Shown: positions 679 through 63,695 of the stretch, in pieces
Position numbering within the stretch: the first letter of the stretch is position 1
How the letters are laid out: each line of letters starts with the position of its first letter
IMG/VR virus record: IMGVR_UViG_3300018432_000290
Coordinates: 1-64,000 of that record
Direction: 5' to 3' (one strand)
Length of the DNA stretch: 64,000 nt
From: a virus
Made by a program: the position numbers and the translations under genes
Notes under the pieces: generated by a model
What the model was told of the DNA's origin: nothing
What the model saw: only the letters and a program-made list of their open reading frames with translations
Databases searched by the model: none

Positions 679-917
679 CGTGGCCCCCGCAGCGCGGCCA
701 GCGCGCGCCTGACGCGCGCCAGCGTCCCTCGAGCGCGGGTGGTGTCCACGTCCACCACCACCGGGTGGACCACCCGCACCTCCACGCGGGGCGGCACCTG
801 GGCGGCCACGTACGCGGGCCAGCGCACGCACCCGCACTGGTGGTGCTGGCCGTGGGTGATCCACCCCACGTCACAGCACGTGGGGGTGTCGCGCGGCAAC
901 CGCGGCAGGTCGCTCAC
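675..917 (-). CDS. small Cys/His-rich hypothetical protein
   Basis: An 80-residue protein with a GTG start behind a GAGGAG ribosome-binding sequence. The N-terminal half is rich in Cys and His (TCCDV, HGQHHQCGC), consistent with metal binding. The C-terminal half is strand-forming (VEVRVVHPVVVDVDTT) followed by a basic tail. It overlaps both neighbours by four bases. I do not recognise the family. Confidence 0.55.
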   Translation of the reverse strand: MSDLPRLPRDTPTCCDVGWITHGQHHQCGCVRWPAYVAAQVPPRVEVRVVHPVVVDVDTTRARGTLARVRRALAALRGPR

Positions 918-1279
918 GGCTCCTCCCGGTGGAACACCTCGCGCGTGATCTCCTGCTCCAGCCCGTCCACGGCGTGCTTCATGCGCGCCAGCCCTTCCGG
1001 GGTGGCCAGCTCCGCGAACGTGGCTTGCCCGTCCGGGGAGTCGGCCCAGGCCTGGGCCTCCGCGGTGGTGGCGTCGAACTCCCCCCGGAGCACCCGCGTG
1101 GCCAGGGCGTGGCGGTGGTCGTCCTTGAGGGCTTCGGCCAGGGCCAGCTGGGGGAACACCAGCGGGGACAGGAAGTCGTGGAACTCGTCGCGCTCGGCGC
1201 GCTCGATCAGTCTGGCCATCTTGGGGCTGGGCTTCTGCTCGCGCAGCACTGCCACCAGCCGGGCCGTGGACTCGTTCAC
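914..1279 (-). CDS. hypothetical protein
   Basis: A 121-residue, mainly helical, acidic protein with a GTG start and four-base overlaps on both sides. No Cys motif, membrane segment or known catalytic signature is visible. It belongs to the tightly packed early operon between the ASCH and HNH genes. Confidence 0.6.
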   Translation of the reverse strand: MNESTARLVAVLREQKPSPKMARLIERAERDEFHDFLSPLVFPQLALAEALKDDHRHALATRVLRGEFDATTAEAQAWADSPDGQATFAELATPEGLARMKHAVDGLEQEITREVFHREEP

Positions 1280-1752
1280 GCGGCACGCTCCAGTTGGATC
1301 AGCACGGCCCCGGGCAGGCGCCACAGCCCCTGCTGGCCGCGCATCTTGATGGCCGGGTCGATGGGGCGGGGGTGGGCCAGCACCAGGTGGAAGGCCACGC
1401 TGGTGCGTCGCCCGTAGCTGTATTCCCGGTCCCCCCACGGCGCGCAGCAGGTGGCCACCCCCGGCACCTGGGCGGCCGGGTGGCAGTCCACCAGGTCCAC
1501 CAGCGCGATCAGGTGGCCCAGCTCCCCGTCGGTGTAGTCCGCGGCCAGCGGGCGGCGCTTCATGGCCTTGCGCACCCTGGGGTCGGACCCTCCCTGCTCG
1601 GAGAACGTCACCCCGGCGTGGATGGCCAGCGGGCCGCGGTAGTGGGTCATCCCGGACCGGTTGTCCACCAGCTTGTGCCCGCTGGCGATCAGACCGGCCC
1701 ACGGTTGGCGCACGGTCAAGGCGCGCACCTCGTCCACGTCCGGGCTCAACAT
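1276..1752 (-). CDS. ASCH domain protein
   Basis: A 158-residue protein. The start ALTVRQPWAGLIASGHK is the hallmark opening of ASCH (PUA-like) domains: a strand, QPWA, then a helix with the conserved G-x-K. Later strands carry GPLAIHAG and LIALVDLVDCH, also typical. ASCH proteins bind RNA or modified nucleosides, and phages often carry one. Which nucleic acid this one handles cannot be told. It overlaps the upstream gene by one base and the downstream gene by four. Confidence 0.8.
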   Translation of the reverse strand: MLSPDVDEVRALTVRQPWAGLIASGHKLVDNRSGMTHYRGPLAIHAGVTFSEQGGSDPRVRKAMKRRPLAADYTDGELGHLIALVDLVDCHPAAQVPGVATCCAPWGDREYSYGRRTSVAFHLVLAHPRPIDPAIKMRGQQGLWRLPGAVLIQLERAA

Positions 1753-4504: not shown

Positions 4505-4737
4505 GGTGACGTCTCCTCGGTGGTGACGGGCAGGGTCTGGGGGTGGTCGGTGCGGGCCTTGGCCAGCCGGGCCTCGTGGGCCGGGCGCATGGACAGGGGC
4601 TGGCCGTCGGGGGCCACGCACGGCTGGGACACGCCGGCGTCACACCCCTTGGGCCACCCCACGCAGTCCACGGTCTTGGCGTGGGTGTGGTCGGCCCACC
4701 AGGCCTGGGACTTGGGCCGGTGGGGGTCCCGCCTCAC
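4501..4737 (-). CDS. zinc-finger protein
   Basis: A 78-residue protein with a GTG start. The pattern VDCVGWPKGCDAG, then QPCVAPDG and MRPAHEARL, resembles the short C-x(n)-C-x(n)-C-x(n)-H zinc fingers common in actinobacterial phage proteins. It ends TTEETSP, encoded by the element that serves the next gene. Its partner is unknown. Confidence 0.6.
   Translation of the reverse strand: MRRDPHRPKSQAWWADHTHAKTVDCVGWPKGCDAGVSQPCVAPDGQPLSMRPAHEARLAKARTDHPQTLPVTTEETSP
4513..4525 (-). promoter_or_regulatory. start-associated 13-bp element
   Basis: Perfect CACCACCGAGGAG eight bases before the ATG at 4504. It also encodes the TTEET near the C-terminus of the upstream gene. Confidence 0.75.
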
Positions 4738-5987
4738 GACGCGGCCTGCTGGCTTGCGGCGGCCGCGCGCCGCGCCGCGTGGGTGGACGTCACCCCGCCG
4801 TGCTCGTTGCGGCACTGGGCACCGGCCGCCACGTCACAGTCCGGGCAGGGCACCGTCTTGGCCGGGGGAGCCGGGTCGGCCCTGCGCGGGCCGTGCCCGG
4901 TGTCCGGGCGGGGACGGTTGCGGGACAGCTGCTCGCGCCACTGCTGGTCCTCACGGTCGGCGGCGGCCACCTGGTCCCACGGGCGGGTGTGGTGATCACA
5001 GCGCACCGTGCGGGAGCGCAGATCGGTCTGGAACGGGTAGCGGTGACCGGGGGCGCGCAGCCACCCGTCCCGGTCACACCACCCGTTGCGCTGGCCGCAG
5101 GCGGCCACGGCGGCCAGTCGGTGCTCCTCGTCCAGCACTTCATCCGCCCGGGCCTGGTCCTGGGCCCCCTCGGCCGCGCGCCGCGCGCCCCCGCACGGCC
5201 CACAGTGGGGTACCTCCTCGCGGGGCCAGCCCTGGTGCTCCGGGCAGCGGGCCTGTTCGGGGTCGAGCGTCATGGGATCCACAGCTGGTGCTCCTCGGTG
5301 GTGTGCGGTGCCGGTGTCGTTCACGGAAGCCACGAGCGGCAGCTGGCGTCGGACCGGGTCCCGGTCGCGCTTCCTTCGGGGGATCCTAGGGGGGGGTGGT
5401 GAGCGGCTCCCCTCGCGCGCGGGCCCGCGCGCGGGCGCGCCCCTACGCGCCCGCGCCCCCCGGGAATCCCGGGAACCTACGGGAAGGGGACCACCTGGGT
5501 GGGACCCATTAAAGATCGAATGGGACCCATTAGCGTCCTGGTGGGACCCTTTCCCGGAGTTATCCACAGGGTCATTGGGTCCCACCTGGGTGGGACCCTT
5601 TCCGGGGTCCTCCACGGAGTTATCCACAGGATTGGGTGTCACCATGGTGGCACCCTTTCCGGGGACCGGGGCCCGCACGCGGTCCAGCTGCAGGGACCCG
5701 GTGGCCAGGTCCAGCGTGATCAGCTCGTAGGTGGTCAGGCGTCCGCGGTGGGCGGTGGACACCACCCGCGCCAGCCCCCAGTCCGCCAGGTCGGCCAGCG
5801 CGCGCTGGGCGGTGGACCGGGACCGGCACGGCTTCATCAGTCGAGCCATGGCACACGGGGTGACGCGCTGGCCCAGATGTAGCTCATCGGCCAGCACCAG
5901 CAGGGCCTTGACCGCGCGCTCGGGCAGCCCGGCGTCCATCAGGTCACTCCAGGCGTCGATCACCTGGCCGCTGTACTCACCGGCCAT
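4734..5987 (-). CDS. replication-initiator candidate (winged helix), fused in frame to a zinc-binding protein
   Basis: As sequenced this is one 417-residue frame, but it looks like two genes. Residues 1-95 form a winged-helix domain (DAGLPERAVKALLVLADE, then a recognition helix around STAQRALADLADWG). Residues 110-165 are encoded by iterons and two DnaA boxes. Residues 166-235 are low-complexity Arg/Pro/Ser. From residue 236 (GTG at 5280-5282, eight bases behind a 13-bp element) comes a Cys-rich protein with CGPCGG, CDRDGW and CPDCDVAAGAQC. One extra C in the 8-C run at 5389-5396 would create a TAG at 5387 and end the first gene at about 200 residues. A winged-helix initiator with its origin inside the gene matches lambda O; function is inferred. 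Confidence 0.6.
   Translation of the reverse strand: MAGEYSGQVIDAWSDLMDAGLPERAVKALLVLADELHLGQRVTPCAMARLMKPCRSRSTAQRALADLADWGLARVVSTAHRGRLTTYELITLDLATGSLQLDRVRAPVPGKGATMVTPNPVDNSVEDPGKGPTQVGPNDPVDNSGKGSHQDANGSHSIFNGSHPGGPLPVGSRDSRGARARRGAPARGPAREGSRSPPPPRIPRRKRDRDPVRRQLPLVASVNDTGTAHHRGAPAVDPMTLDPEQARCPEHQGWPREEVPHCGPCGGARRAAEGAQDQARADEVLDEEHRLAAVAACGQRNGWCDRDGWLRAPGHRYPFQTDLRSRTVRCDHHTRPWDQVAAADREDQQWREQLSRNRPRPDTGHGPRRADPAPPAKTVPCPDCDVAAGAQCRNEHGGVTSTHAARRAAAASQQAAS
5291..5303 (-). promoter_or_regulatory. start-associated 13-bp element inside a long frame
   Basis: Perfect CACCACCGAGGAG, eight bases before an in-frame GTG (5280-5282) and 17 before an ATG (5271-5273). Its position argues that a separate gene (about 4734-5282) begins here. 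Confidence 0.65.
5414..5454. repeat. 20-bp perfect palindrome plus overlapping 9-bp hairpin
   Basis: 5414-5433 is a perfect 20-bp GC palindrome centred on GGGCCC. It runs into a second stem, GCGGGCGCG (5431-5439) paired with CGCGCCCGC (5446-5454) across a six-base loop. It lies between the iterons and the start-associated element, in the part of the frame that reads as low-complexity protein. It may be a terminator for the initiator gene or an origin structure. Confidence 0.6.
5490..5660. other. candidate replication origin: iterons and two DnaA boxes
   Basis: Copies of GGTGGGACCC or close variants lie at 5498-5507, 5519-5528 (AATGGGACCC), 5540-5549, 5589-5598 and 5646-5655 (GGTGGCACCC), with an inverted copy at 5577-5586. 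The inverted copy and the one at 5589 form a 22-bp palindrome with a two-base centre. Perfect DnaA boxes TTATCCACA occur at 5560-5568 and 5620-5628, exactly 60 bp apart. The stretch 5508-5533 is locally AT-richer. All of this sits inside the winged-helix gene, as iterons do in lambda O. Confidence 0.7.
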
Positions 5988-11933: not shown

Positions 11934-12322
11934 TGTTGTCCAGGCTGTCCGGGCGCGTGTGGTTCGTGCTGCTGTGCGGGGCGCTGGTGCTGGCGGGTGC
12001 CCTGGGGGCGGCCCTGTGGTTCGCGGCGGTGTTCGCCGTGGAGGTGCTGACCTGGCCCGGGGTGGTCACCCTGCTGGCCGCGGAGGCCTGTGTGGCCGTG
12101 GGGGCGGTGCTGGACTACCGGGAGGCCCGCCTGGAGCCCCCCACCCGGCTGGCAGCCTGGCTGGTGGCCCACTACACGGTGGTGCGCCGCGTGTACCGGC
12201 GCGGGCGCTGGGCCGTGGACGGGGTCAAGGCCCGCCGGCGCGCGGCCACCGCCCGGGCCGCGGCCCAGGCCCGGCGTGACGCCGTCGGTGAGGACCAGCA
12301 GCGCGGGCGGGAGGCCGCGTGA
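11933..12322 (+). CDS. membrane protein of transfer operon
   Basis: A 129-residue protein. Two hydrophobic helices (VWFVLLCGALVLAGALGAAL and VLTWPGVVTLLAAEACVAVG) are followed by a basic cytoplasmic tail rich in Arg and Ala. It overlaps the upstream gene by one base and the coupling-protein gene by four. A two-helix anchor beside a coupling protein may help dock it to the membrane. Confidence 0.65.
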   Translation: MLSRLSGRVWFVLLCGALVLAGALGAALWFAAVFAVEVLTWPGVVTLLAAEACVAVGAVLDYREARLEPPTRLAAWLVAHYTVVRRVYRRGRWAVDGVKARRRAATARAAAQARRDAVGEDQQRGREAA

Positions 12323-13842
12323 CCCTGGCCGTGGCCCTGGTGGCGGTGCTGGTCATCGCCGGGGCCATCGCCTCGGTGCGCGCCGGGGCCGGGCGCCCGC
12401 GCGGGCTGGCCCCGGGGTTCGACCTGGTCAAGACCGTCAGCCTGGCCGCGGCCCGGCGCAAGGCCCTGCACACCCGGCCGGGGCTGACCATCAAGCACCG
12501 CCCCACGTGGCTGGGGGGCACCCCGGCCCGGCAGGTGGGCATCGAGTTGTGCCGGTCCGGGTGGCGCTGGCTGTACGCGTCCCTGGAGGACGTGGTGCTC
12601 ATCTTCGCCGAGCCCCGGTCCTGGAAGACCGGGCTGCTGTCGGCCCACGTGGTGGACCTGCCCGGGGGCGGGCTGGGCACCAGCACCCGCACCGACCTGT
12701 ACCTCAACACCGTGGAGCACCGGAAGGACCAGGGCCCGGTGCGGGTGTTCAACCCGGAGGGACTGGGGGCCACCATCGGGGTGCCCAACGACGCCCGGTG
12801 GGACATGGTGCGCGGGTGTGACGCCCCCGCCGAGGCCACCATGCGCGCCGGGTACCTGCTGTCCGGGTCGGCCAGCGGGGACAAGGTGTCCGACCGGGGG
12901 TACTGGGAGAGCAACGCCGGTCGCGCCCTGCGCTACCTGCTGTGTGCCGCGGCCCTGTCCGGGGGCTCCATGCACGAGGTGTACGAGTGGGGCCAGACCC
13001 TGTCCCAGCGGGCCCCGGTCTCCATCCTCAAGACCAACCCCGGGGCCCCGCCCGGCTGGGGGGAGGCCCTGGAGTCCTTGCAGGCCCAGGACCCCAAGCC
13101 CAAGGGGTCCGTGAGCGCCACCCTGACCCTGGCCCTGCAGTTCATGGACATACCGGAGCTGGCGTACGCGGCCACCCCGGGGCCGGGGGACGTCGGGCTG
13201 GACGTGCCGGCGTTCATCCTGGGCGGGGGGTTCCTGTACGTCATCGGCACACAGCGGGAGTACGCCCCCCTCACCCCGCTGTTCTCCGCGCTGGTGGGCC
13301 ACGTGGTGGAGACGTGCAAGAAGCTGGCCGGGAGCCGGGGTCGGCTGGACCCTCCGTTCGGCCTGATCCTGGACGAGGTGTACAACACCGCCCGGCTGCC
13401 GCTGGCCCGCATCAGCTCCGAGCTCGGCGGCATCGGCGTCCCCATCGTGTGCGCGTTCCAGGGGCTGGACCAGGCCGAGGAGATGCTGGGCGCGGCCGGG
13501 GCCGGGACGCTGTGGACCAACAGCGCCGTGCGCATGGGGGCCGGGGGCAGCGTGCCCAGCCTGGAGAAGCTGTCCACGCTGCTGGGGCACAAGGCTCAGC
13601 GCAACCGGCGCGGGGAGATCGAGCGTTCCCCCGTGCTCACCGCCAGCGAGATCGACCAGCTGGACCCCGGGAAGGCCGTGGTCTACACGCGCGGCAAACC
13701 CACCATCGGCACGGTGCGCCCCATCTGGGAGCGCCGCACCCCGCGGGCCAAGGCGCCCCACCCCCCCACCGGTCCGCTGGCCCCGGTGTACAGCCTGGAC
13801 GAGCAGCGCCGGGCCGGGCCCACCACCGAGGTGGGGTCGTGA
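12319..13842 (+). CDS. TraG/VirD4-type conjugative coupling protein
   Basis: A 507-residue protein with a GTG start. One N-terminal membrane helix (residues 1-18) precedes the ATPase. The Walker A region is AEPRSWKTG (K103, T104): the usual Gly before Lys is Trp102. Walker B is LILDEV (D352, E353), followed by TARLPLARISSELGGIGV and VCAFQGLDQAEEML, the TraM-recognition/TraG C-terminal pattern, and a sensor-like WTNSAVRMGAGGS. Such ATPases bring relaxase-DNA complexes to a type IV secretion channel at the membrane. It is unusual in a phage. No VirB4 is present, so the channel would have to come from elsewhere. Confidence 0.85.
   Translation: MTLAVALVAVLVIAGAIASVRAGAGRPRGLAPGFDLVKTVSLAAARRKALHTRPGLTIKHRPTWLGGTPARQVGIELCRSGWRWLYASLEDVVLIFAEPRSWKTGLLSAHVVDLPGGGLGTSTRTDLYLNTVEHRKDQGPVRVFNPEGLGATIGVPNDARWDMVRGCDAPAEATMRAGYLLSGSASGDKVSDRGYWESNAGRALRYLLCAAALSGGSMHEVYEWGQTLSQRAPVSILKTNPGAPPGWGEALESLQAQDPKPKGSVSATLTLALQFMDIPELAYAATPGPGDVGLDVPAFILGGGFLYVIGTQREYAPLTPLFSALVGHVVETCKKLAGSRGRLDPPFGLILDEVYNTARLPLARISSELGGIGVPIVCAFQGLDQAEEMLGAAGAGTLWTNSAVRMGAGGSVPSLEKLSTLLGHKAQRNRRGEIERSPVLTASEIDQLDPGKAVVYTRGKPTIGTVRPIWERRTPRAKAPHPPTGPLAPVYSLDEQRRAGPTTEVGS
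13820..13832 (+). promoter_or_regulatory. start-associated element on the plus strand
   Basis: CACCACCGAGGTG at the end of the coupling-protein gene, six bases before the GTG of the next gene. It is one base off the minus-strand consensus and encodes the TTEV of the C-terminal PTTEVGS. Confidence 0.6.
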
Positions 13843-30020: not shown

Positions 30021-30263
30021 ATGAACACCCCTGCCAACGGACGTCGCCGGGCGTGGGGGCGGCGCGACCGCCGGGTGTGGGGGCGGCGCTACGCCCAGGC
30101 CGACCGGGCGGTGCGCGAGGCCACCATCGGGGTGGCCAACGTGCGCGCCCGCGGACAGGCCGTCCCGGACGCGCTGCTGGCCGACCGCGGAGAGAAGATC
30201 ACCCGGCGGGCCGACGTCAGGGAAGCGGCGGCCAACGAACGGCGGGGGCTGGCCACCCCGTGA
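30021..30263 (+). CDS. small basic protein encoded before relaxase
   Basis: An 80-residue protein with GGAG eight bases before the ATG. The first third is Arg/Trp-rich (RRRAWGRRDRRVWGRRY), the rest helical with alternating charge. It overlaps the relaxase gene by four bases. A DNA-binding relaxosome accessory is a reasonable guess from size, charge and position only. Confidence 0.6.
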   Translation: MNTPANGRRRAWGRRDRRVWGRRYAQADRAVREATIGVANVRARGQAVPDALLADRGEKITRRADVREAAANERRGLATP

Positions 30264-33200
30264 GCGTGTCCGCCACGGCGGTGTCGGACGGGGGCTACTA
30301 CCTGCGCGCGTGCGACAAGCACAAGGCCCCCAAGGACCGCCCGGAGGCCCACGGCCCGGCCGCGTACGAGCTGAACGCGGTGGCCGGCGGGGAGCCCCCC
30401 GGGGAGTGGTACGGGGCCGGAGCTCGGGCCCTGCGCCTGGTGGGGGAGATCGTGCCGGGGCAGCCCAGCGGGGATGACTTCTCCACCCTGGTGGACGAGG
30501 TCAAGCACCCCCACACCGGGGAGAAGCTGGGCAGCCGGCCGCGGCGGTTCAAGACCGCCGAGCAGCTGGTGGCCCAGTACCGGGCCAAGCACCCGGACGC
30601 CACCCCGGAGCAGGTGTCCGAGCAGGCCGCGAAGGCCAGCACCAAGCGGCGCAAGAACGTCCACGCGTACGACCTGGGGTACGGGCTGCCCAAGAGCTGG
30701 AGCGTGTTGCACGCCGCCCTCGAGCGCGAGGGCCGGACCGCCGAGGCCGCCCTGATGTGGGAGGCCATCAACGCCGGCGTGAAGGCCAGCCTGGACCAGG
30801 CCGCGGAGGAGCACGGGTGGACGCGCACGGGGGTGGGCGGGCCCCGGGTGCACGGCCAGAGCACCACCCGCAACGTGCGGGCCCCGGACTGGACCATGGC
30901 CATGTTCCGTCACCACACCAGCCGGGACCGGGACCCCCAGCTGCACGTCCACGTGATGCTGCTCAACCGGGTCCAGCTGCCGGACGGGAGCTGGAAGGCC
31001 ATCCACGCGGCCCCCCTGATGCGGGCCAAGCACCAGCTGGACGCCACGTTCCTGCGCGTGGCCGAGGCCAAGCTCTATGAGCTGCTGGGCTACAGCGTGG
31101 CCACCCGCCCGGACGGCAAGGCCCGGGAGATCCTGGGGGTGTCCCAGGCGGTGCGGGATCTGTTCTCCAGCAGGTCACGGGCCCTGACGGAGCGCGCGTC
31201 GGAGCTGGTGGACGGCTACGCGGCCAAGCACAAGCTGGAGTCGGTGAGCCCGTTCATCCGGTGGTCCATCCTCCAGTACGCGGCCCGGGACAGCCGCAAG
31301 CCCAAGGCCCAGGGGATCACCCGCAAGCAGGACCTGGCCCGCTTCGAGGCCACCATGCGCGAGGCCGTGCGCGGGGGGCTGGACGGGGTGGTGGCCGACA
31401 CCGACAAGGCCCGCGCCCAGCCGTCCCCGGCCCTGCCGTGGAACGACGAGCTGGTGATCGACCAGGCGTTGGCCGACCTGGACTCCAGGAGCGGCACCAG
31501 TAAGGCCGTGTGGAACCGGTCCCACCTGTACCACGCCATCAGCATGCGGCTGCCGGACCGGCTCAACCTGCCCGCCGAGGACATTCCCACCCTGCTGTCC
31601 GCCCTGACGGAGCAGGCCCTGGCCAGCCCCCAGGTGATCAGCGTGGAGGCCCCGGGGGCGGCCCGGGTGCCGGACAGCCTGCGCGACGCGCGCACGGGTC
31701 GGTCGGTGTTCGACGCCCCGGAGGGGGAGCGCTACACCACCGCGGCCCACCTGGGGCGGGAGGACAGCCTGGTGGCCCGCCTGGACCAGGTGGGGGCCCC
31801 GACGGTGCCGGAGGGCACCACCCGTGCCCTGATCGCCGCGCGCCACGAGCTGGACGACCAGCAGGCCGACGTGGCCGCCGCCGTGATGGCCGATGAACAC
31901 CGCATCGTCCAGATCGAGGCCCCGGCCGGGTCCGGCAAGTCCCGCGTGGTGGGGGCCATCAGCGACGTGTCCGAGCAGGTGTACGGCCACGGGCTGCTGG
32001 GGTTCACCACCGCCCAGAACGCCGCGGAGGTGCTGGCCCGGGAGGGGGTGCAGCGGGCCCACAACATCGCCGCGTACCTGGACTTCCTGGACCGCGCCCA
32101 GCACGGGGAGGTCACGGACACGGAGCGTGCCACGTTCGCCGTGCCACGCGGTGCCACGGTGGTGGTGGACGAACGCACCCTGGTGGGCACGCGGGACCTG
32201 GTGCGCCTGCTGGACGCCCTGGACCGCGCCGGCGCGGGCAAGTACGTGCTGGTGGGGGATGAGGAGCAGGCCGGGGCCGTGGACGCCGGCGGGGCCGCCG
32301 CGCTGATGAACCGGGAGCGCGAGCCCTACCGGCTGGCCACCATCCACCGGTTCCACGAGCAGTGGGAGCGCGACGCATCCGCGGAGGTCAGGCAGGGCAA
32401 GGTGGAGGCCCTGATCCCGTACCAGGTGCGGGGCCGGCTGCACGGCAGCACCGACGCGGAGTGGGTGCGGGACGCGGCCGTGGAGGGGTTCGTCCGGGAC
32501 TACCTGGACGGGGAGCAGTCCATCATCGTCACGCGCACCGGGGAGGACGCGTCCAACCTGAACAGCCGGGTGCGCGCCCAGCTGGTGCGCCACGGGCGCG
32601 TGTCCGACGAGGGAGCCGTCCCCCTGCGCGATGACACCGTGGCCGGGGTGGGGGACCTCGTGGCCACCCGCAAGAACAGCCGTGCACGCGGGGTGGTCAA
32701 CCGGGAGCAGTGGGAGGTGGTGGGCACCACCAGCCACGGGGCGCTGGAGGTGCGCCGCCTGGAGGGGCGGGACAAGGACACCGGGGCCATGCGGTACGGG
32801 CCCACCCGCACCCTGGACGCGGAGTACACGCGGGAGCAGGTGGAACTGGCCTACAGCGGCACGGTGGAGGCCGTCCAGGGACGCAACCCGGACACCAGCC
32901 ACCTGCTGGTCACCCCCGGCATGGGGCGCAGCCACTTCTATCCCGGGTTCGCCCGGGGGTCCAAGCGCAACCACGCGTATGCGGTGCTGGAGGACGACAA
33001 GCAGACGCCGCTGGGGCGCATCGGGGACGTGCTGGAGTACGACGACCGGGAGGTGGCCGCCCGCCAGGTGATTGCGCAGGAGCTGGAGCGCAGCGAGCAC
33101 CTGGGCCACCTGGGCCCCCAGTGGCAGCAGCTGGTGATCGAGGACAGCGCCGTCCACCACCGGGAGCTGATGCGTCAGGCCCTGGGGGATGACGCCCAGC

Positions 33201-35050
33201 GGGTGCTGGAGGACCCGGACGCCGGCGGGCTGCTGCGGCTGATGCGCGCCGCGGAGACCGAGGGCCACCAGCCGGAGAAGGTGCTGGCCGCCGCGCGCGG
33301 GCGCGGCAACCTGACGGGGGCGCGGTCCCCGGCCCGGGTGCTGTTCGCGCGCATGGACCGGGAGCTGGACCGGGCGCGGTCCCAGCGCCAGGAGGAGGAC
33401 CCGGACGCGCCGGCGGTCCCGTTCACCTATCAGGCCCGGGTGCGCCCGGTGGAGCACGGGGCCCGGGACAACGCCGAGCGCGCGTACGCGGCCGAGCTGG
33501 CCCGGGCCATGGACCACAGCGTGGCCGAGCTCGGGCAGCGCGTGGTGGAGCAGTGGCCGGCCTGGGCCCAGCGCCAGTGGGGGGACCTGCCGGACGATCC
33601 CCTGGAGCGTCAGGCCCTGGCCGGTCGGGCGGCCCCGGTGGCCGCGTACCGCGAGCAGTTCGGGTGGGACGACGAGCTGGACCCCATCGGCCCCCAGCCG
33701 TCGCGCACGGAACCGGAGCGGGCGTGGGTGTGGAACCGGGCCGCGGACACCATGGGGCTGGACCGCCACAGCCGGGACCTGGCCGGGCTGAGCGCGGGGG
33801 AGCTGGAGAACCGGCGCCAGGCCTGGCAGCGGGAGCAGACCTGGGGTCCGCGCAACGTGGACGACGAGCTGGGGGCCACTCACCTGGCCGCCGAGCGCGC
33901 CCGGGCCAAGGCCGTGGAGGCCCGCGCCGCCTACGGGGAGGACCTGGACCTGGAGGCCGCCGCGGAGAGCGAGCGCGCCCGGGTGCGTCAGCTGGAGTAC
34001 GTGGCCCAGGTGCGCAAGGACTGGTACGCGGAGACCCGGGACACGCGGGTGGCCGCGGAGTACGCGGCGGCCGAGCAGGAACGGCGCGCGGAGCTGGAGC
34101 AGGCACGGCAGGACGACCCGGTCACGCGTGACGTCACGCGTGACCCGGAGACCCGTGACGTCACGCGTGACGTCACGCGTGACCAGCCCCAGCGCGAGAT
34201 CCCGGACGAGGACCAGGTGCCCGCGTGGGCCCAGGAGGCCCGGCGCGGCGTGGACGCGGAGGCCCGCCGCGCCCAGGATCTGCGGTGGGCCCGGGAACGT
34301 GCGGCCGAGCGCGCCGCCCAGGCCCGGGAGCGCGAGGAGCAGGAACGCGTTACGCGTAACGCGCAGCCCGTCCCGGACGATGGGCGGGGTGAGAACGGGC
34401 CGAATAATATTTCCCGGGATCCCACACCGGTGCCCGACGCCCCCTCAGATGAGGGCCCGGAAGTAGACGACCCCCCGCGTGAGCTGGGCGAGGACCGGCC
34501 GGTTGACGATCCGGCCCCGGTCGAGAGGTTGCCGGAACCCCACCCGCGTCCCCTGCCGGAGCCGGAGCGGGAGCCGGAGGAGGACCAGCCCGAGGACGAG
34601 CCGCAACCGGAGCCGGTGGACGAGCTGGCCGCGCGCCGGGAGGCCAAGGCCGAGCGCGAGGCCGAGCAGGAGCACCAGCGCGAGGACGACGAGGGGGACG
34701 AGCCCATCGGCGGGTGGCGGGACGCCCCGGACGACTACACCGACGAGCAGGTGCAGGAGCGCGAGGACCGCGCCCCGGACGCGGACGTGGTGGACCTCGA
34801 GCGGGAGCGCCAGCAGCGGGAGCAGGACGACGCCGCCGCGGCCGCGCGCGAGGCCGACGAGCGCGCCGAGGAGCAGGCCCGCCAGCAGGCCCGCGCGGAC
34901 CGTGACGCCCAGCTGCGCGCGGACGTGGAGAAGGCCCAGGAGGCCGCGCGCATCATGGCCGAGCGCCGGGAGGCGGCCGAGCGCGAGCAGGACGAGCGGG
35001 AGCCGGACCCGGCCCCGGTGCGCGAGGACACCCACCAGCGCGAGGACTAG
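30260..35050 (+). CDS. MobF-family (TrwC/TraA) conjugative relaxase-helicase
   Basis: 1,596 residues from a GTG that overlaps the upstream gene by four bases. Relaxase domain (1-330): paired tyrosines Y13-Y14 in GGYYLRA, EWYGAGARAL, YDLGYGLPKSWSVLHAAL, and the metal-binding histidines FRHHTS (218-219) and DPQLHVHVML (229, 231). Helicase domain (about 520-900): Walker A APAGSGKS (554-561), VVVDERTL, YVLVGDEEQAGAVDAGGAAAL and YSGTVEAVQGRN, the RecD/TraI-type motifs. A highly charged, coiled-coil-like tail of about 700 residues follows. Such enzymes nick oriT, stay bound to the 5-prime end through Tyr and unwind the strand for transfer. All catalytic positions appear intact. Confidence 0.92.
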   Translation: MSVSATAVSDGGYYLRACDKHKAPKDRPEAHGPAAYELNAVAGGEPPGEWYGAGARALRLVGEIVPGQPSGDDFSTLVDEVKHPHTGEKLGSRPRRFKTAEQLVAQYRAKHPDATPEQVSEQAAKASTKRRKNVHAYDLGYGLPKSWSVLHAALEREGRTAEAALMWEAINAGVKASLDQAAEEHGWTRTGVGGPRVHGQSTTRNVRAPDWTMAMFRHHTSRDRDPQLHVHVMLLNRVQLPDGSWKAIHAAPLMRAKHQLDATFLRVAEAKLYELLGYSVATRPDGKAREILGVSQAVRDLFSSRSRALTERASELVDGYAAKHKLESVSPFIRWSILQYAARDSRKPKAQGITRKQDLARFEATMREAVRGGLDGVVADTDKARAQPSPALPWNDELVIDQALADLDSRSGTSKAVWNRSHLYHAISMRLPDRLNLPAEDIPTLLSALTEQALASPQVISVEAPGAARVPDSLRDARTGRSVFDAPEGERYTTAAHLGREDSLVARLDQVGAPTVPEGTTRALIAARHELDDQQADVAAAVMADEHRIVQIEAPAGSGKSRVVGAISDVSEQVYGHGLLGFTTAQNAAEVLAREGVQRAHNIAAYLDFLDRAQHGEVTDTERATFAVPRGATVVVDERTLVGTRDLVRLLDALDRAGAGKYVLVGDEEQAGAVDAGGAAALMNREREPYRLATIHRFHEQWERDASAEVRQGKVEALIPYQVRGRLHGSTDAEWVRDAAVEGFVRDYLDGEQSIIVTRTGEDASNLNSRVRAQLVRHGRVSDEGAVPLRDDTVAGVGDLVATRKNSRARGVVNREQWEVVGTTSHGALEVRRLEGRDKDTGAMRYGPTRTLDAEYTREQVELAYSGTVEAVQGRNPDTSHLLVTPGMGRSHFYPGFARGSKRNHAYAVLEDDKQTPLGRIGDVLEYDDREVAARQVIAQELERSEHLGHLGPQWQQLVIEDSAVHHRELMRQALGDDAQRVLEDPDAGGLLRLMRAAETEGHQPEKVLAAARGRGNLTGARSPARVLFARMDRELDRARSQRQEEDPDAPAVPFTYQARVRPVEHGARDNAERAYAAELARAMDHSVAELGQRVVEQWPAWAQRQWGDLPDDPLERQALAGRAAPVAAYREQFGWDDELDPIGPQPSRTEPERAWVWNRAADTMGLDRHSRDLAGLSAGELENRRQAWQREQTWGPRNVDDELGATHLAAERARAKAVEARAAYGEDLDLEAAAESERARVRQLEYVAQVRKDWYAETRDTRVAAEYAAAEQERRAELEQARQDDPVTRDVTRDPETRDVTRDVTRDQPQREIPDEDQVPAWAQEARRGVDAEARRAQDLRWARERAAERAAQAREREEQERVTRNAQPVPDDGRGENGPNNISRDPTPVPDAPSDEGPEVDDPPRELGEDRPVDDPAPVERLPEPHPRPLPEPEREPEEDQPEDEPQPEPVDELAARREAKAEREAEQEHQREDDEGDEPIGGWRDAPDDYTDEQVQEREDRAPDADVVDLERERQQREQDDAAAAAREADERAEEQARQQARADRDAQLRADVEKAQEAARIMAERREAAEREQDEREPDPAPVREDTHQRED
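34121..34183. repeat. four copies of palindrome GTCACGCGTGAC
   Basis: The 12-bp palindrome occurs at 34121-34132, 34133-34144, 34160-34171 and 34172-34183: two head-to-tail pairs 39 bp apart, inside the relaxase gene. In the protein it reads as repeated VTRD. Confidence 0.85.
34346..34363. repeat. 18-bp perfect palindrome
   Basis: CGCGTTACGCGTAACGCG is perfectly self-complementary and shares the ACGCGT core with the four 12-bp palindromes 160 bp upstream. It codes for VTRN in the relaxase tail. Confidence 0.85.
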
Positions 35051-58216: not shown

Positions 58217-59509
58217 CTAGGCCGCGGCGCCGAAGCGCAGCGCCGCCAGGGCCCGGGGGTCGTCCGGCACCGCGTCCATCCGGCTGTACGCGAAGTACCC
58301 GGTCTGCATGAAGTCCGCGTACCGCTCCCCCAGCCGCACGGCCTGGAACCCCTGCACGATGCGCACCAGGTAGCCGGCGAAGAAGTCCCCGAACACCGCC
58401 CCGATGCCGCCCGGCACGTTGCCGGCCAGGCTGTTGTCCACGAAGTACGGGTGGCCGTTGATGGTGGGGGCGAACCCGGGCACGGGGATGGGCACCCACA
58501 GCGGGCGCTCGTCCCCGTCCTTGAGCTTGCGGGCCAGCTTGAGCATCCCGTCGGACAGCATGTACCGGGTGCGGCTGCCGTTGCGGTAGGCCGGATCGAT
58601 GCTGTGCTCCAGGTCGATGAACGCGTCGAAGCTCACCGACGGGGTGGCTCCCACCGCGGTGGTGGCCCCCACGATCAGCGGGTCGGTGCCGGCCCCGATA
58701 CGGCTGGGGTGCAGCAGCCCCAGCGGCTGACCCACCCCGGTGCCGGTCAGGAACCGGCGGGCGTAGATCCGGCCGATGCGCTCACCGAACTTGCGCACCA
58801 GGAACCCGTCCAGGTCGAACGCGGCGTCCTGGATGAGGCTCCAGGGCACGCGCACCATCTTGGACGTGTAGATGTGGGCCCCGATCTCGCGGGTCTCGAA
58901 CACCATGTCCTGCTCGGGGACCTGGGTGTTCTCCGCGATCTCGATGCCCTCGTTCATGGTGTCGTCACTCATCGGCCAGTTCATGACGGCCCCGGTGCTG
59001 GTGACGATCTGGTTGGCGTACTGGAGCAGCCCGCCGAAGTCCTTCATCACCTCCACCACCTGGTCCCGGTACTCCGGGGGGACCAGGTAGCCACCGGCCT
59101 GGGGGGTGCCCTGGCCCAGCGCGCGGGCCTCCACCTTGTTCTCGGCCAGCAGCCGGCGCTGGTCCGGGGTCAGGGCCGCGTCCACCCCCTGGCCCTCGCG
59201 CAGGAACGCGGAGAACGCGGCCCGGTAGGCCTCCGGGGTGCCCCCCTTCACCTCGAGCTCGGGGTCGGTGTGGGCCGGCACCACGGTGGTGCGGTCGTCG
59301 CGCCCGCCCAGCTTGGCCATCTTCTCGGCCCGGGACAGGGCCTCCAGGTCCTTGTCGATCTGCTCGTTGGCCCGGTTCCAGTTCGCGGTGCCCTCCGCGG
59401 ACCACCCGTCGTCGCGGGCGTCCTCGGTGGCCTGAATCTCCTGCATGCGCGTGTAGGTCTCCTGGACCTGCTGGCGCGCGCGCTCCACGGGGGTGTCGCT
59501 GTCAGCCAC
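58217..59509 (-). CDS. HK97-fold major capsid protein
   Basis: A 430-residue protein with a GTG start. Residues 1-110 are a charged helical delta/scaffold domain. Then QAGGYLVPPEYRDQVVEVM, VPWSLIQDAAFDLDGFLVRK, FGERIGRIYARRFLTGTG, QPLGLLHP, and PVPGFAPTINGHPYFVDNS with YLVRIVQGFQAVRL are classic HK97 coat-protein landmarks. The protease encoded upstream would remove the N-terminal domain during maturation. Confidence 0.93.
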   Translation of the reverse strand: MADSDTPVERARQQVQETYTRMQEIQATEDARDDGWSAEGTANWNRANEQIDKDLEALSRAEKMAKLGGRDDRTTVVPAHTDPELEVKGGTPEAYRAAFSAFLREGQGVDAALTPDQRRLLAENKVEARALGQGTPQAGGYLVPPEYRDQVVEVMKDFGGLLQYANQIVTSTGAVMNWPMSDDTMNEGIEIAENTQVPEQDMVFETREIGAHIYTSKMVRVPWSLIQDAAFDLDGFLVRKFGERIGRIYARRFLTGTGVGQPLGLLHPSRIGAGTDPLIVGATTAVGATPSVSFDAFIDLEHSIDPAYRNGSRTRYMLSDGMLKLARKLKDGDERPLWVPIPVPGFAPTINGHPYFVDNSLAGNVPGGIGAVFGDFFAGYLVRIVQGFQAVRLGERYADFMQTGYFAYSRMDAVPDDPRALAALRFGAAA

Positions 59510-60488: not shown

Positions 60489-61787
60489 CTACTCGTCGGG
60501 GTCGTCGGGGTCGGGGGCTGGCGCCGGCGACGGCAGGGCAGGTGGGGGTTCCGGTTCCGGTTCGGGGGGCTCGCCGAGCACCCCCATGTTCAGCGGCTGC
60601 AACGGCACGTCCCCGCCCTCGATGGGGGGCAGCCCCTCCATGGCCCGGGCCTCGTTGGCCGTCAACCCGGCCCACTGGCGCATGAACGCGTAGTAGCCCC
60701 CTCGAGCGGCGCTGTCCCCGCGCAGCAGCCGCTCCCGGCGGTACCGGGCCTCCTGGGGGCCGGTGAGCAGGTCCATGCTCACGGCCTGCTCGGTGGGGGT
60801 CAGCCACTGGGGGCCCAGGTCGTAGGTGGAGAACCCGATGGACTGCTGCTCCAGCCCGGTGCCCCAGCTGGTGGACTTCTCGGTCTCGTACAGCAGGAAC
60901 GGGGGCACCCCGAACCACCGCCCAATCTCGGGCACCTGGAAGTGGCGGGACTCCAGGAACTGGGCGTCGTCGTTGGGCATGGTCAGGGACTGGAACTCTG
61001 CCCCGCTGTCCAGCACGGCAATGTCGTGGGCGTTCTTCTTGCCCAGCACCTTGTCCCGCCAGCGCTCCTGCAACGTCTCGGCCTGATCTTGCTTGAGCCG
61101 CCCCTCGGTCTTGATGAACCCGCTCAGCAGGTTGCCGGACCCGAACAGCTTGGCCGCGTGGGCCTCCGCGGCCAGCCCCATCCCGATGGCCTGTTTGGCC
61201 AGGCTGATGGGGGACACCCCGGCCACCCCGTCGAACCCCAGGTGCGGCACGTGGAACACCTCACGGCTGGTCCAGTCCCGCCGGTCCCCGTCGTCTCCCA
61301 GTACCTCGTACACCCGCCCGCTGGGGTTCAGGTCGTTGGGGGTGGCCTGGCCGGGGGTGACCCGGTCCGGGCGGATGGGCCACAGCTCGATGGGGAACCC
61401 CACCCGGTTGCGGATGATCTGGGCGTAGCTGTTGCCCCACAGCGCGCGATGGCAGTACAGGGTGCGCCAGAAGTGGCTGGGGGTCTTGCCCGGGCAAGGG
61501 GCGGCCAACAGCCGAGCTCCGGGGGTGTTGACCTTGATGGGGTCAAACGTCCCCTTGGTGTAGGCCACCAGCGGCAGCTCCCCGCCCAGCCCCGCGATCA
61601 AGGCCACGCACCGGTACACGGCGCTCATGGCCAGGGACCCGGTGGGGGTGACGGGCACCCCGGAGTCGTTGGCCATGTCCCCGGCCTTGAACCACTCCAG
61701 CAGCTTGGCCCCGGTCAGCGGGTTGCCGGGGTTGTTCAACCCCCCCAGCCCCACGGCCTCGCGGTGGGCGGAACGGAACAGCGTCAC
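60489..61787 (-). CDS. HK97-family portal protein
   Basis: A 432-residue protein with a GTG start. SAVYRCVALIAGLGGELPLV, WGNSYAQIIRN, VFHVPHLGFDGVAGVSPIS, LQERWRDKVLG and FGVPPFLLYETEKSTSWG are standard portal landmarks. The dodecameric ring forms the DNA entry vertex and binds the terminase. Confidence 0.93.
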   Translation of the reverse strand: MTLFRSAHREAVGLGGLNNPGNPLTGAKLLEWFKAGDMANDSGVPVTPTGSLAMSAVYRCVALIAGLGGELPLVAYTKGTFDPIKVNTPGARLLAAPCPGKTPSHFWRTLYCHRALWGNSYAQIIRNRVGFPIELWPIRPDRVTPGQATPNDLNPSGRVYEVLGDDGDRRDWTSREVFHVPHLGFDGVAGVSPISLAKQAIGMGLAAEAHAAKLFGSGNLLSGFIKTEGRLKQDQAETLQERWRDKVLGKKNAHDIAVLDSGAEFQSLTMPNDDAQFLESRHFQVPEIGRWFGVPPFLLYETEKSTSWGTGLEQQSIGFSTYDLGPQWLTPTEQAVSMDLLTGPQEARYRRERLLRGDSAARGGYYAFMRQWAGLTANEARAMEGLPPIEGGDVPLQPLNMGVLGEPPEPEPEPPPALPSPAPAPDPDDPDE

Positions 61788-62003: not shown

Positions 62004-63695
62004 TCACCACAGGTTGGGCACCACGGCCGGCTGGGCTGCTCGGCCCTTCCAGGCCCCCACGGCCATGCTGGCCGTGGGCACCCCGTCGATGCGCTTGCCG
62101 GTCGCGTGCCGCTCGGGCTTGTCGGGCCTGATCAGCTCCGGATCGTAGGGGGCGCGCCTGGCCTCGACGTTGTCGAAACACCAGCGGGCCACCGGGTTCC
62201 CGTGGTGGCGTAGACCGTCGGTCACCACCAGGTCCATCAGGGACGTCATGCCCGGGGTCATGGCCGTGTAGGTCTGGGACAGGGTGACGGGCTCCAGCCC
62301 GCACCGTTCCCCGATGGCCTGCACCACCGGGTCCAGGCTCCAGCGGTCCGCGTCCACGCTCAGAATGTCGAAGCGCTCGGCGTCGGCCTCGATGGCCTCG
62401 TACACCTTCTCGTAGTCCAGCACGTTGCCGTCGGTGACCTCGATCCACCCGGCGCGCACCCACCGCAGCACCTTGCCGTCGTTGCGCCTGTCCAGCTCCG
62501 GCAGGGCGGCCTCCGGTAGCCAGAACCGCCACAGCACGTCGCAGGCCAGCTCGTCCTCATCCGGGAACACCAGGCACCAGGCCGTCAGGTCCTGGCGCGC
62601 GGCCAGGTCCAGCCCGGCGTAGCACTCCCGCCCGGTCAGGGCGTCCAGGCGGTAGGCCGGGTCCAGCCAGGGCTCCCCGGGCTGGCGGTCGTACAGGTGC
62701 ATGGGCATCCACCGGGTGGCCTGGGCCACCCACTGGTTGAGCCGGTACTGACGGAAGCTGTTCTCCGAGGCCGGGTCGTTCTTGGCCTCGAGCGCTTCCT
62801 CCCGCAGGGCCCGCAAGGACAGGAAGCGCCCCAGCGCGGGGTTGGACAGCTTCCAGTTGCGCTCATCCCACGGGTCCGCGTCCATGGGCACGTTGCGCAG
62901 GTAGACGAACACGTGAGGAGCGCGGGACGGGTCGTCCTCGATGCGCTGCATCTCGCTGTGCATGCCGGCCGCGAACTTGGCGTCCGTGGTGCCGGCGGTG
63001 GTGGCGGCCACCATCAGGGGCTGGCGGCGGGCCCCCATGCCGGTGCGCATGGCGTCCCACATGGACCGGTCGCGCCAGGCCAGGATCTCGTCCGCGGCCA
63101 CCCCGCTGGGGTTGGACCCCAACGCGCCGGCGGCGTCGGCGGCGATCACGGCGTACACCCCGCCGTGCTTGGCGTCCACGATGCGCCGGTTGTGCTCCTT
63201 GACCTGCAACCGCTTACGCAGCAGGGGGGACAGCTTGACCATGTCCATGGCCACGTTGAACGCCAGCGCGGCCTGGTCCTTGTCCCGGGCCACCCCGTAC
63301 AGCTCCGCGCCGCCCTGGTACTCCCCCACCAGCAGGTACAGCATGATGGCGGCCAGCAGCTCGGTCTTGCCGTTCTTGCGGGCAATCTCGATCCACGCGA
63401 TGCGGTACTGGCGCACGTACCCGTGCACGCCGCCCTCGGTGGACCACACCACCCGCCCGAACAGCGGGCGGATGATGTCCCGCCACTGCCAGAGCTCCAG
63501 CACGAACGGGCGTCCGCGCCACGTGTCCTTGGTGTGGACCAGCACCTGCTCGATGAACCCGCGCACGTGGTTGGCCCGCGGATCGCACAGGTGGTCCCCG
63601 CGCTTACGGCAGGTGCGCCCGTCCAGGGCGTACCCGCACTCCGGGAGGCGGGGTGCGGTCTTGCGCCGGCGGCGCGGGGGGGCGGGGGCGGCCAC
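62004..63695 (-). CDS. terL: terminase large subunit
   Basis: A 563-residue protein. ATPase: EIARKNGKTELLA (Walker A) and PSGVAADEILAWRD (Walker B with DE). Nuclease: YAGLDLAARQDLTAW with the first catalytic Asp and ILSVDADRWSLDP with another. This is the HK97-like Terminase_1 family, which cuts and pumps DNA. An N-terminal Cys/His cluster (CGYALDGRTCRKRGDHLC) is an addition often seen in actinophages. Confidence 0.93.
   Translation of the reverse strand: MAAPAPPRRRRKTAPRLPECGYALDGRTCRKRGDHLCDPRANHVRGFIEQVLVHTKDTWRGRPFVLELWQWRDIIRPLFGRVVWSTEGGVHGYVRQYRIAWIEIARKNGKTELLAAIMLYLLVGEYQGGAELYGVARDKDQAALAFNVAMDMVKLSPLLRKRLQVKEHNRRIVDAKHGGVYAVIAADAAGALGSNPSGVAADEILAWRDRSMWDAMRTGMGARRQPLMVAATTAGTTDAKFAAGMHSEMQRIEDDPSRAPHVFVYLRNVPMDADPWDERNWKLSNPALGRFLSLRALREEALEAKNDPASENSFRQYRLNQWVAQATRWMPMHLYDRQPGEPWLDPAYRLDALTGRECYAGLDLAARQDLTAWCLVFPDEDELACDVLWRFWLPEAALPELDRRNDGKVLRWVRAGWIEVTDGNVLDYEKVYEAIEADAERFDILSVDADRWSLDPVVQAIGERCGLEPVTLSQTYTAMTPGMTSLMDLVVTDGLRHHGNPVARWCFDNVEARRAPYDPELIRPDKPERHATGKRIDGVPTASMAVGAWKGRAAQPAVVPNLW

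Follow-up and report, generated by a model that had tools for sequence, protein, structure and literature searches.

Among the systems closest to the locus analysed here is the replication origin of lambda and Stx phages, which occupies a central position within the initiator gene and comprises four (lambda) or six (Stx) iterons, each an imperfect inverted repeat, with an AT-rich tract alongside (PMC7466680). In iteron plasmids of the RK2 and P1 type, an unwinding element and DnaA boxes accompany the initiator iterons (PMC4980987). Among actinophages, RepA of mycobacteriophage Miko supports an experimentally proven protein-dependent replicon, the origin of which was suggested by its authors to lie within repA or immediately upstream of it (PMC7157519). 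Furthermore, Rem711 gp66 is annotated as a replication initiation protein, and PrincePatrick gp71 matches phrog_3171, replication initiation, with an E-value of 2e-100. In the literature searched, with most subscription papers outside its scope, no description of iterons and DnaA boxes interleaved inside a gene was found for actinophages.

Here, an array of iterons, DnaA boxes and a low-GC patch located within a gene for a 417-aa protein was analysed and compared with these systems. The window, that is the whole stretch of DNA analysed, covers bases 1-64000 of the 68,009-base IMG/VR virus record IMGVR_UViG_3300018432_000290.

The phage record and the gene carrying the array

The record has a GC content of approximately 74% and appears to represent a phage of the GC-rich actinobacteria type. 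Head and packaging genes of a tailed phage are present in the window:

58217-59509, major head gene
60489-61787, portal gene
62004-63695, terminase gene

Near the left end of the window, a recombination and replication cluster comprises an exonuclease, RecT, the gene of the 417-aa protein and a RuvC-like resolvase; these neighbours act in DNA metabolism, which is one basis for reading the gene as an initiator. A phage DnaB had no match in the record, no lambda P-like loader was identified and no second candidate initiator was seen among the record proteins examined. The left end of the record also carries a run of approximately 110 bases consisting almost entirely of G (45-155), which, close to the contig end, is likely to be an artefact of sequencing or assembly.

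Genes of plasmid-transfer type and a ParB-like gene were found further along the record:

12319-13842, plus strand, VirD4/TraG-type coupling protein
30260-35050, plus strand, MobF (TrwC-type) relaxase fused to a helicase, with an intact-looking HUH motif (DPQLHVHV)
67282-67956 of the record, ParB-like gene, matched by ParB and methyltransferase profiles

The relaxase is similar to relaxases found on plasmids of actinobacteria (561 plasmid records), its matches among 50,697 phage records were confined to two short records, and it was absent from 20/20 terminase relatives of the phage (see below). The record may represent either a phage that can be mobilised or a chimeric assembly; the tetranucleotide composition of this stretch is somewhat, not extremely, different. 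A second intragenic repeat array is present towards the 3′ end of the relaxase gene, namely tandem GTCACGCGTGAC palindromes at 34115-34183 encoding the peptide TRDVTRDPETRDVTRDVTRD. The ParB-like gene adjoins a queuine tRNA-ribosyltransferase-like gene (the pair spanning 66305-67956 of the record), and the two may serve DNA base modification rather than partition. Neither an integrase nor a ParA had a match in the 68,009-bp record, which may be incomplete; together with the plasmid-transfer genes this is suggestive only as a sign of a plasmid state.

The gene carrying the array and its two terminal regions are located as follows:

5987..4734, minus strand, open frame with ATG start, 417 aa, proposed replication initiator gene
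5700..5987, minus strand, N-terminal region with a predicted H-H-H-H-E-E order, winged-helix-like (single-sequence AlphaFold model, pLDDT only 58)
4734..5273, minus strand, C-terminal region with a CxxH...CGxCxxAR motif (motif and hhalign)

Accordingly arranged, the protein consists of a winged-helix-like N-terminus, an iteron-bearing linker and a Cys/His-rich C-terminus. A normal GC-by-codon-position signature, in one and the same frame, is seen at 5987-5680 and again from approximately 5260 to 4734, but disappears over the array (5680-5320). An arrangement of two genes separated by a non-coding gap was considered on account of this loss and rejected, as no stop codon was found there; because the frame from 5987 is without a stop, translation must cross the iteron array. 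The C-terminal part may have an internal start at 5273.

By sequence, the 417-aa protein had no significant counterpart among solved structures. It was not matched by Phage_rep_O (PF04492), for which lambda O as the control gave 5.7e-36, nor by any plasmid Rep domain in the Pfam, NCBIfam and plasmid comparisons, and its N-terminus matched no family or initiator in profile searches. A match to the phage zinc-finger PF24623 covered residues 367-414 (E 5e-6), and from its sequence the C-terminal region is possibly zinc-binding and partner-recruiting. No direct relatives of the protein were found in the phages, plasmids, viral contigs and genome contigs searched. The route through RecT and the exonuclease led to L005, L007 and L009, which were set aside as they carry no comparable gene. 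The route through the terminase gave 37 relatives of the window phage; the 20 records tested had no initiator, RecT or relaxase match and no paired DnaA boxes, so that the early region is not common to these 20 relatives.

Iterons, DnaA boxes and constraint on the array

In plus-strand order, the array consists of the following elements:

5486-5507, inverted pair of a degenerate inverted half (5486-5495, 2 mismatches) and an exact direct GGTGGGACCC (5498-5507), 16/22 self-complementary
5504-5533, low-GC patch, candidate unwinding element, a 30-mer of 43% GC against a mean of 74%, within the lowest 0.01% of window 30-mers
5519-5528, plus strand, direct iteron, core TGGGACCC, 2 mismatches
5540-5549, plus strand, direct iteron GGTGGGACCC, exact
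5560-5568, plus strand, perfect DnaA box TTATCCACA
5577-5598, 22-bp palindrome GGGTCCCACC-TG-GGTGGGACCC with perfect 10-bp arms, inverted exact copy at 5577 and direct exact copy at 5589
5620-5628, plus strand, perfect DnaA box TTATCCACA
5634-5655, near-palindromic iteron pair GGGTGTCACC-AT-GGTGGCACCC, 20/22 self-complementary, with the direct iteron GGTGGCACCC at 5646 (1 mismatch) and its inverted partner at 5634 (2 mismatches)

The first-pass annotation had described five direct iterons and one inverted iteron, a 22-bp palindrome, a pair of perfect DnaA boxes at a 60-bp interval and an AT-richer patch, all inside the coding sequence, and every one of these elements was recovered. The direct copies start at 5498, 5519, 5540, 5589 and 5646 (spacings of 21, 21, 49 and 57 bp) and the inverted copy at 5577, and the whole set falls within the minus-strand frame 5987-4734, after the winged-helix-like N-terminus. 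Two degenerate inverted copies, at 5486 and 5634, had been missing from that list. The distance between the DnaA boxes is exactly 60 bp and the two are the only perfect boxes in the window, across which a scan allowing one mismatch was not informative; a 16-mer containing the box is duplicated exactly. The low-GC patch is located at the 3′ end of the array in the sense of the gene, overlaps the iteron at 5519 and is mild in absolute terms. Iteron copies with at most one mismatch number 5 in 200 bp, compared to an expectation of 0.08 based on the remainder of the record. The array is the sole such cluster in the record, and elsewhere the sites in the top-ranked clusters had no neighbour within 200 bp. 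A cumulative GC skew, which had been proposed as a check, showed no inflection at 5.5 kb and reached its maximum near 37.75 kb; it is uninformative here, the phage genes being strand-biased.

The array is constrained as DNA rather than as peptide, since its copies occupy all codon positions and both strands and are never reproduced by synonymous shuffling. The iterons encode GSH, GPT or, when inverted, VGP, corresponding to three codon phases. When synonymous codons were redrawn with the protein kept, 0.7 GGGWCCC sites were obtained against 5 observed (p 0.0004) and 0.01 DnaA boxes against 2 (p 0.0004 or less), and two boxes were never reached; likewise, 60 second-order Markov shuffles yielded 0 perfect boxes. 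Off-phase repeat pairs in the gene amounted to 64 against 24 (0/300 synonymous shuffles), and the observed number of off-phase iteron copies was reached by 0/3000 synonymous-codon permutations. Lambda O, used as the positive control, passes the same kind of permutation test. A by-product of a low-complexity peptide linker (GSH, PVDNS) would account for the three iterons encoding GSH in one frame and for both boxes encoding VDN, but not for the copies in other frames or on the opposite strand, nor for the outcome of the redraws and permutations; this explanation is refuted by the codon-phase test and keeps next to no probability.

With ori-lambda and the Stx origins the window locus shares intragenic iterons and a flanking low-GC tract, mild at 43%, and its protein resembles lambda O in the order of a presumed N-terminal DNA-binding part, a linker and a presumed C-terminal partner-binding part. 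It differs from lambda O in lacking a Phage_rep_O domain and in the two DnaA boxes between the iterons, none of which were seen in lambda O. Iterons and DnaA boxes in one origin are a feature in common with the iteron plasmids RK2 and P1. In plasmids of this type, however, the origin is located outside the rep coding sequence, whereas the array in the window lies inside the gene, and none of the plasmid Rep families gave a match to the window protein. The best explanation for the type of origin is an intragenic one, lambda-O-like in layout, with DnaA boxes added.

Initiator-like genes of similar layout in other phages

Viral contigs were scanned for paired boxes at the box spacing of the window, followed by inspection of the reading frames, and at least one case was obtained, the phage L124. 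Its gene encodes a winged helix and a Cys/His C-terminus and carries six CCACCGGAAC iterons, with two perfect DnaA boxes located between the iterons. Relatives of this gene (phrog_26991) are annotated only as helix-turn-helix proteins and are found in prophages of M. abscessus and in phages of M. smegmatis (phiGD21-1 gp54, phiGD34-2 gp53 and IdentityCrisis gp55). A 10-mer in 3-7 copies, always in 2-3 codon phases, is present in 26/29 distinct family genes from viral and genome contigs, and its sequence varies by clade (CCACCGGAAC or GTTCCGGTGA, CGACCGGACA, GTTGGGGTAA). One or more perfect boxes for DnaA (TTATCCACA or TTGTCCACA) are present in 11/29 family genes; in L124, as well as in several prophages of M. 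abscessus with TTGTCCACA boxes, paired boxes are located in the same place between the iterons. For the family genes tested, synonymous permutation gave a significant result with one or both of two measures, and in the sampled genes with CGACCGGACA iterons the lowest-GC 50-mer adjoins the last iteron or lies just 3′ of it. The family proteins match the PHROG profiles 'replication initiation' and 'O-like' with best E-values of 1e-9 to 4e-13. In the family model, a folded winged helix is followed by an unfolded linker (pLDDT ~30), which coincides with the iterons, and by a helix at the C-terminus. A structural search of the N-terminus, which had also been proposed in the first-pass annotation, returned MarR/ArsR-type winged helices as the nearest folds of the family model, none of them significant; with the single-sequence model of the window protein, which is too poor, such a search is meaningless.

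Intragenic iterons in several frames, interleaved DnaA boxes (in many members of the family) and the CxxH...CxxCxxAR C-terminus are common to phrog_26991 and the window gene, in the former after a winged helix and in the latter after a winged-helix-like N-terminus. The two differ in the sequence of the iterons and in their spacing, which is less regular in the window (21/49/57) than in the family (33/22 bp), and their N-termini are not alignable by profile, the family profile giving no hmmsearch match to the window N-terminus up to E 10. The order of helices and strands in the low-confidence window model is nonetheless that of the better-modelled winged helix of the family.

The window protein carries CPEH...CGPCGGAR at its C-terminus. 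Among 9,817 ORFs from 186 loci, the pattern C..H.{6,18}C..C..A[RG] was confined to the window gene, the L124 family, Rem711 gp66 and PrincePatrick gp71, with unrelated ORFs negative; the pattern was defined after seeing the sequences, and the loci are a non-random set, many of which were fetched for the L124 family. Aligned by hhalign, the C-termini of the window protein and the family gave an E-value of 5.6e-5 and a probability of 66% over 42 columns, and a plain HMM of the family C-terminus did not reach the window ORF. Common ancestry with the initiator family is thus weakly indicated by sequence, and for the C-terminal motif only, while the common layout is strong evidence for function.

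The phrog_3171/phrog_2447 initiators (PrincePatrick gp71, Rem711 gp66) share the C-terminal Cys/His motif with the window protein, and PrincePatrick gp71 is in addition located downstream of RecE/RecT in its own phage. They differ in their N-terminal domains, their intragenic repeats are weak or absent by the permutation test and they have no paired DnaA boxes. Miko repA, the sequence of which is unrelated to the window gene, showed neither intragenic iterons nor DnaA boxes when tested likewise. As the function of Miko repA is proven, a layout with intragenic iterons is not required of an initiator and represents one solution among several.

Proposed origin and competing explanations

Taken together, the array is probably the replication origin of the phage, located inside its own initiator gene, at which the protein would bind the iterons, DnaA its boxes, the patch would melt and the host helicase would be recruited. 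In the proposed sequence of events, the winged-helix-like N-terminus would bind the GGTGGGACCC iterons, several of which are arranged as 22-bp inverted pairs, and host DnaA would bind the two TTATCCACA boxes between them. Initiator and DnaA together would wrap the DNA and thereby or in addition open the low-GC patch (5504-5533), and the C-terminal part, held on a disordered linker encoded by the iterons themselves, would recruit the host replicative helicase. We infer protein binding, DnaA use, melting site and helicase recruitment by analogy with lambda (PMC7466680) and with plasmids combining iterons and DnaA boxes such as RK2 (PMC4980987). The helicase is taken to be that of the host because no phage DnaB match was found. 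The involvement of DnaA is the least certain step, as the boxes are kept less faithfully than the iterons in the family.

The first-pass annotation had read the locus as a lambda O-like origin under self-encoded and DnaA control. The intragenic iteron-type origin is supported by the constraint on the DNA and by the recurrence of the anatomy in a family of initiator type; 'lambda O-like' holds for the layout and not for membership, given the missing Phage_rep_O match. The plasmid-style maintenance suggested at the same time does not follow from the origin, since lambda has such an origin yet integrates.

A variant compatible with the origin reading is that the iterons form the true origin and the DnaA boxes are incidental or a titration or regulatory site. 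The presence of perfect boxes in only 11/29 family genes, compared to iterons that are nearly always kept, is in its favour, as is the exact duplication of the box-holding 16-mer, by which one box may be a copy of the other. Two perfect boxes are, however, very unlikely at 74% GC, and paired boxes recur between the iterons in L124 and several M. abscessus prophages (TTGTCCACA). This variant is considered unlikely, though far from negligible.

Two further explanations dispense with an origin at this position. The array could be an intragenic operator through which the winged-helix protein, as a transcriptional regulator, would repress or time its own operon, with DnaA boxes coupling it to the host cell cycle, and the MarR/ArsR-type regulators nearest to the family N-terminus, although without significance, would fit such a role. 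The position of the array well inside the coding sequence rather than at a promoter, its low-GC patch and DnaA boxes, relatives that match initiator profiles and not regulators, and the lack of another candidate initiator among the proteins examined all make an operator improbable. Even less probable is an oriT or partition site whose inverted repeats would be the target of the MobF relaxase or the ParB-like protein. Its basis is the occurrence of a relaxase with HUH motif, a coupling protein and a ParB-like gene in the record, but the relaxase is located 25 kb from the array, the array lies inside the gene of a DNA-binding protein, no ParA match was found, and the same anatomy is present in prophages with no noted relaxase; moreover, the presence of DnaA boxes together with a low-GC patch is in keeping with an origin.

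Beyond this single phage, it is on balance plausible that actinobacterial phages, including common M. abscessus prophages, possess an undescribed class of two-key origins in which iterons and DnaA boxes are interleaved in the linker-coding region of the initiator gene and iteron sequences are exchanged from lineage to lineage under a constant layout. If true, a testable origin would be available for a phage whose initiator has no close relative, and origins could be predicted to the base pair for an M. abscessus prophage family annotated only as helix-turn-helix. The combination of a lambda-style origin with plasmid-style DnaA boxes would also bear on the way in which phage replication is coupled to the host initiator, and the paired variants of iterons and winged helices would form a set for studying changes in initiator specificity while the site is locked in coding sequence.

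Paired DnaA boxes were also observed in other viral contigs. In L176, an unrelated GC-rich contig, a winged-helix-like protein (ORF ~834-1659, minus strand) carries paired VDNS DnaA boxes after its DNA-binding domain and is possibly a further independent case of the layout. L175, a contig of 49% GC, contains approximately ten CGCAGAATC-type repeats interleaved with DnaA boxes (~5136-5189), a candidate iteron origin in another phage. Metagenomic viral contigs of ~44-48% GC (L010, L020, L028, L036, L040, L046, L049, L054, L075, L082, L089, L110 and others) likewise have paired DnaA boxes, which overlap the 5′ end of a small-protein ORF, in most cases with a conserved ...YGIPQLL... stretch at the C-terminus.
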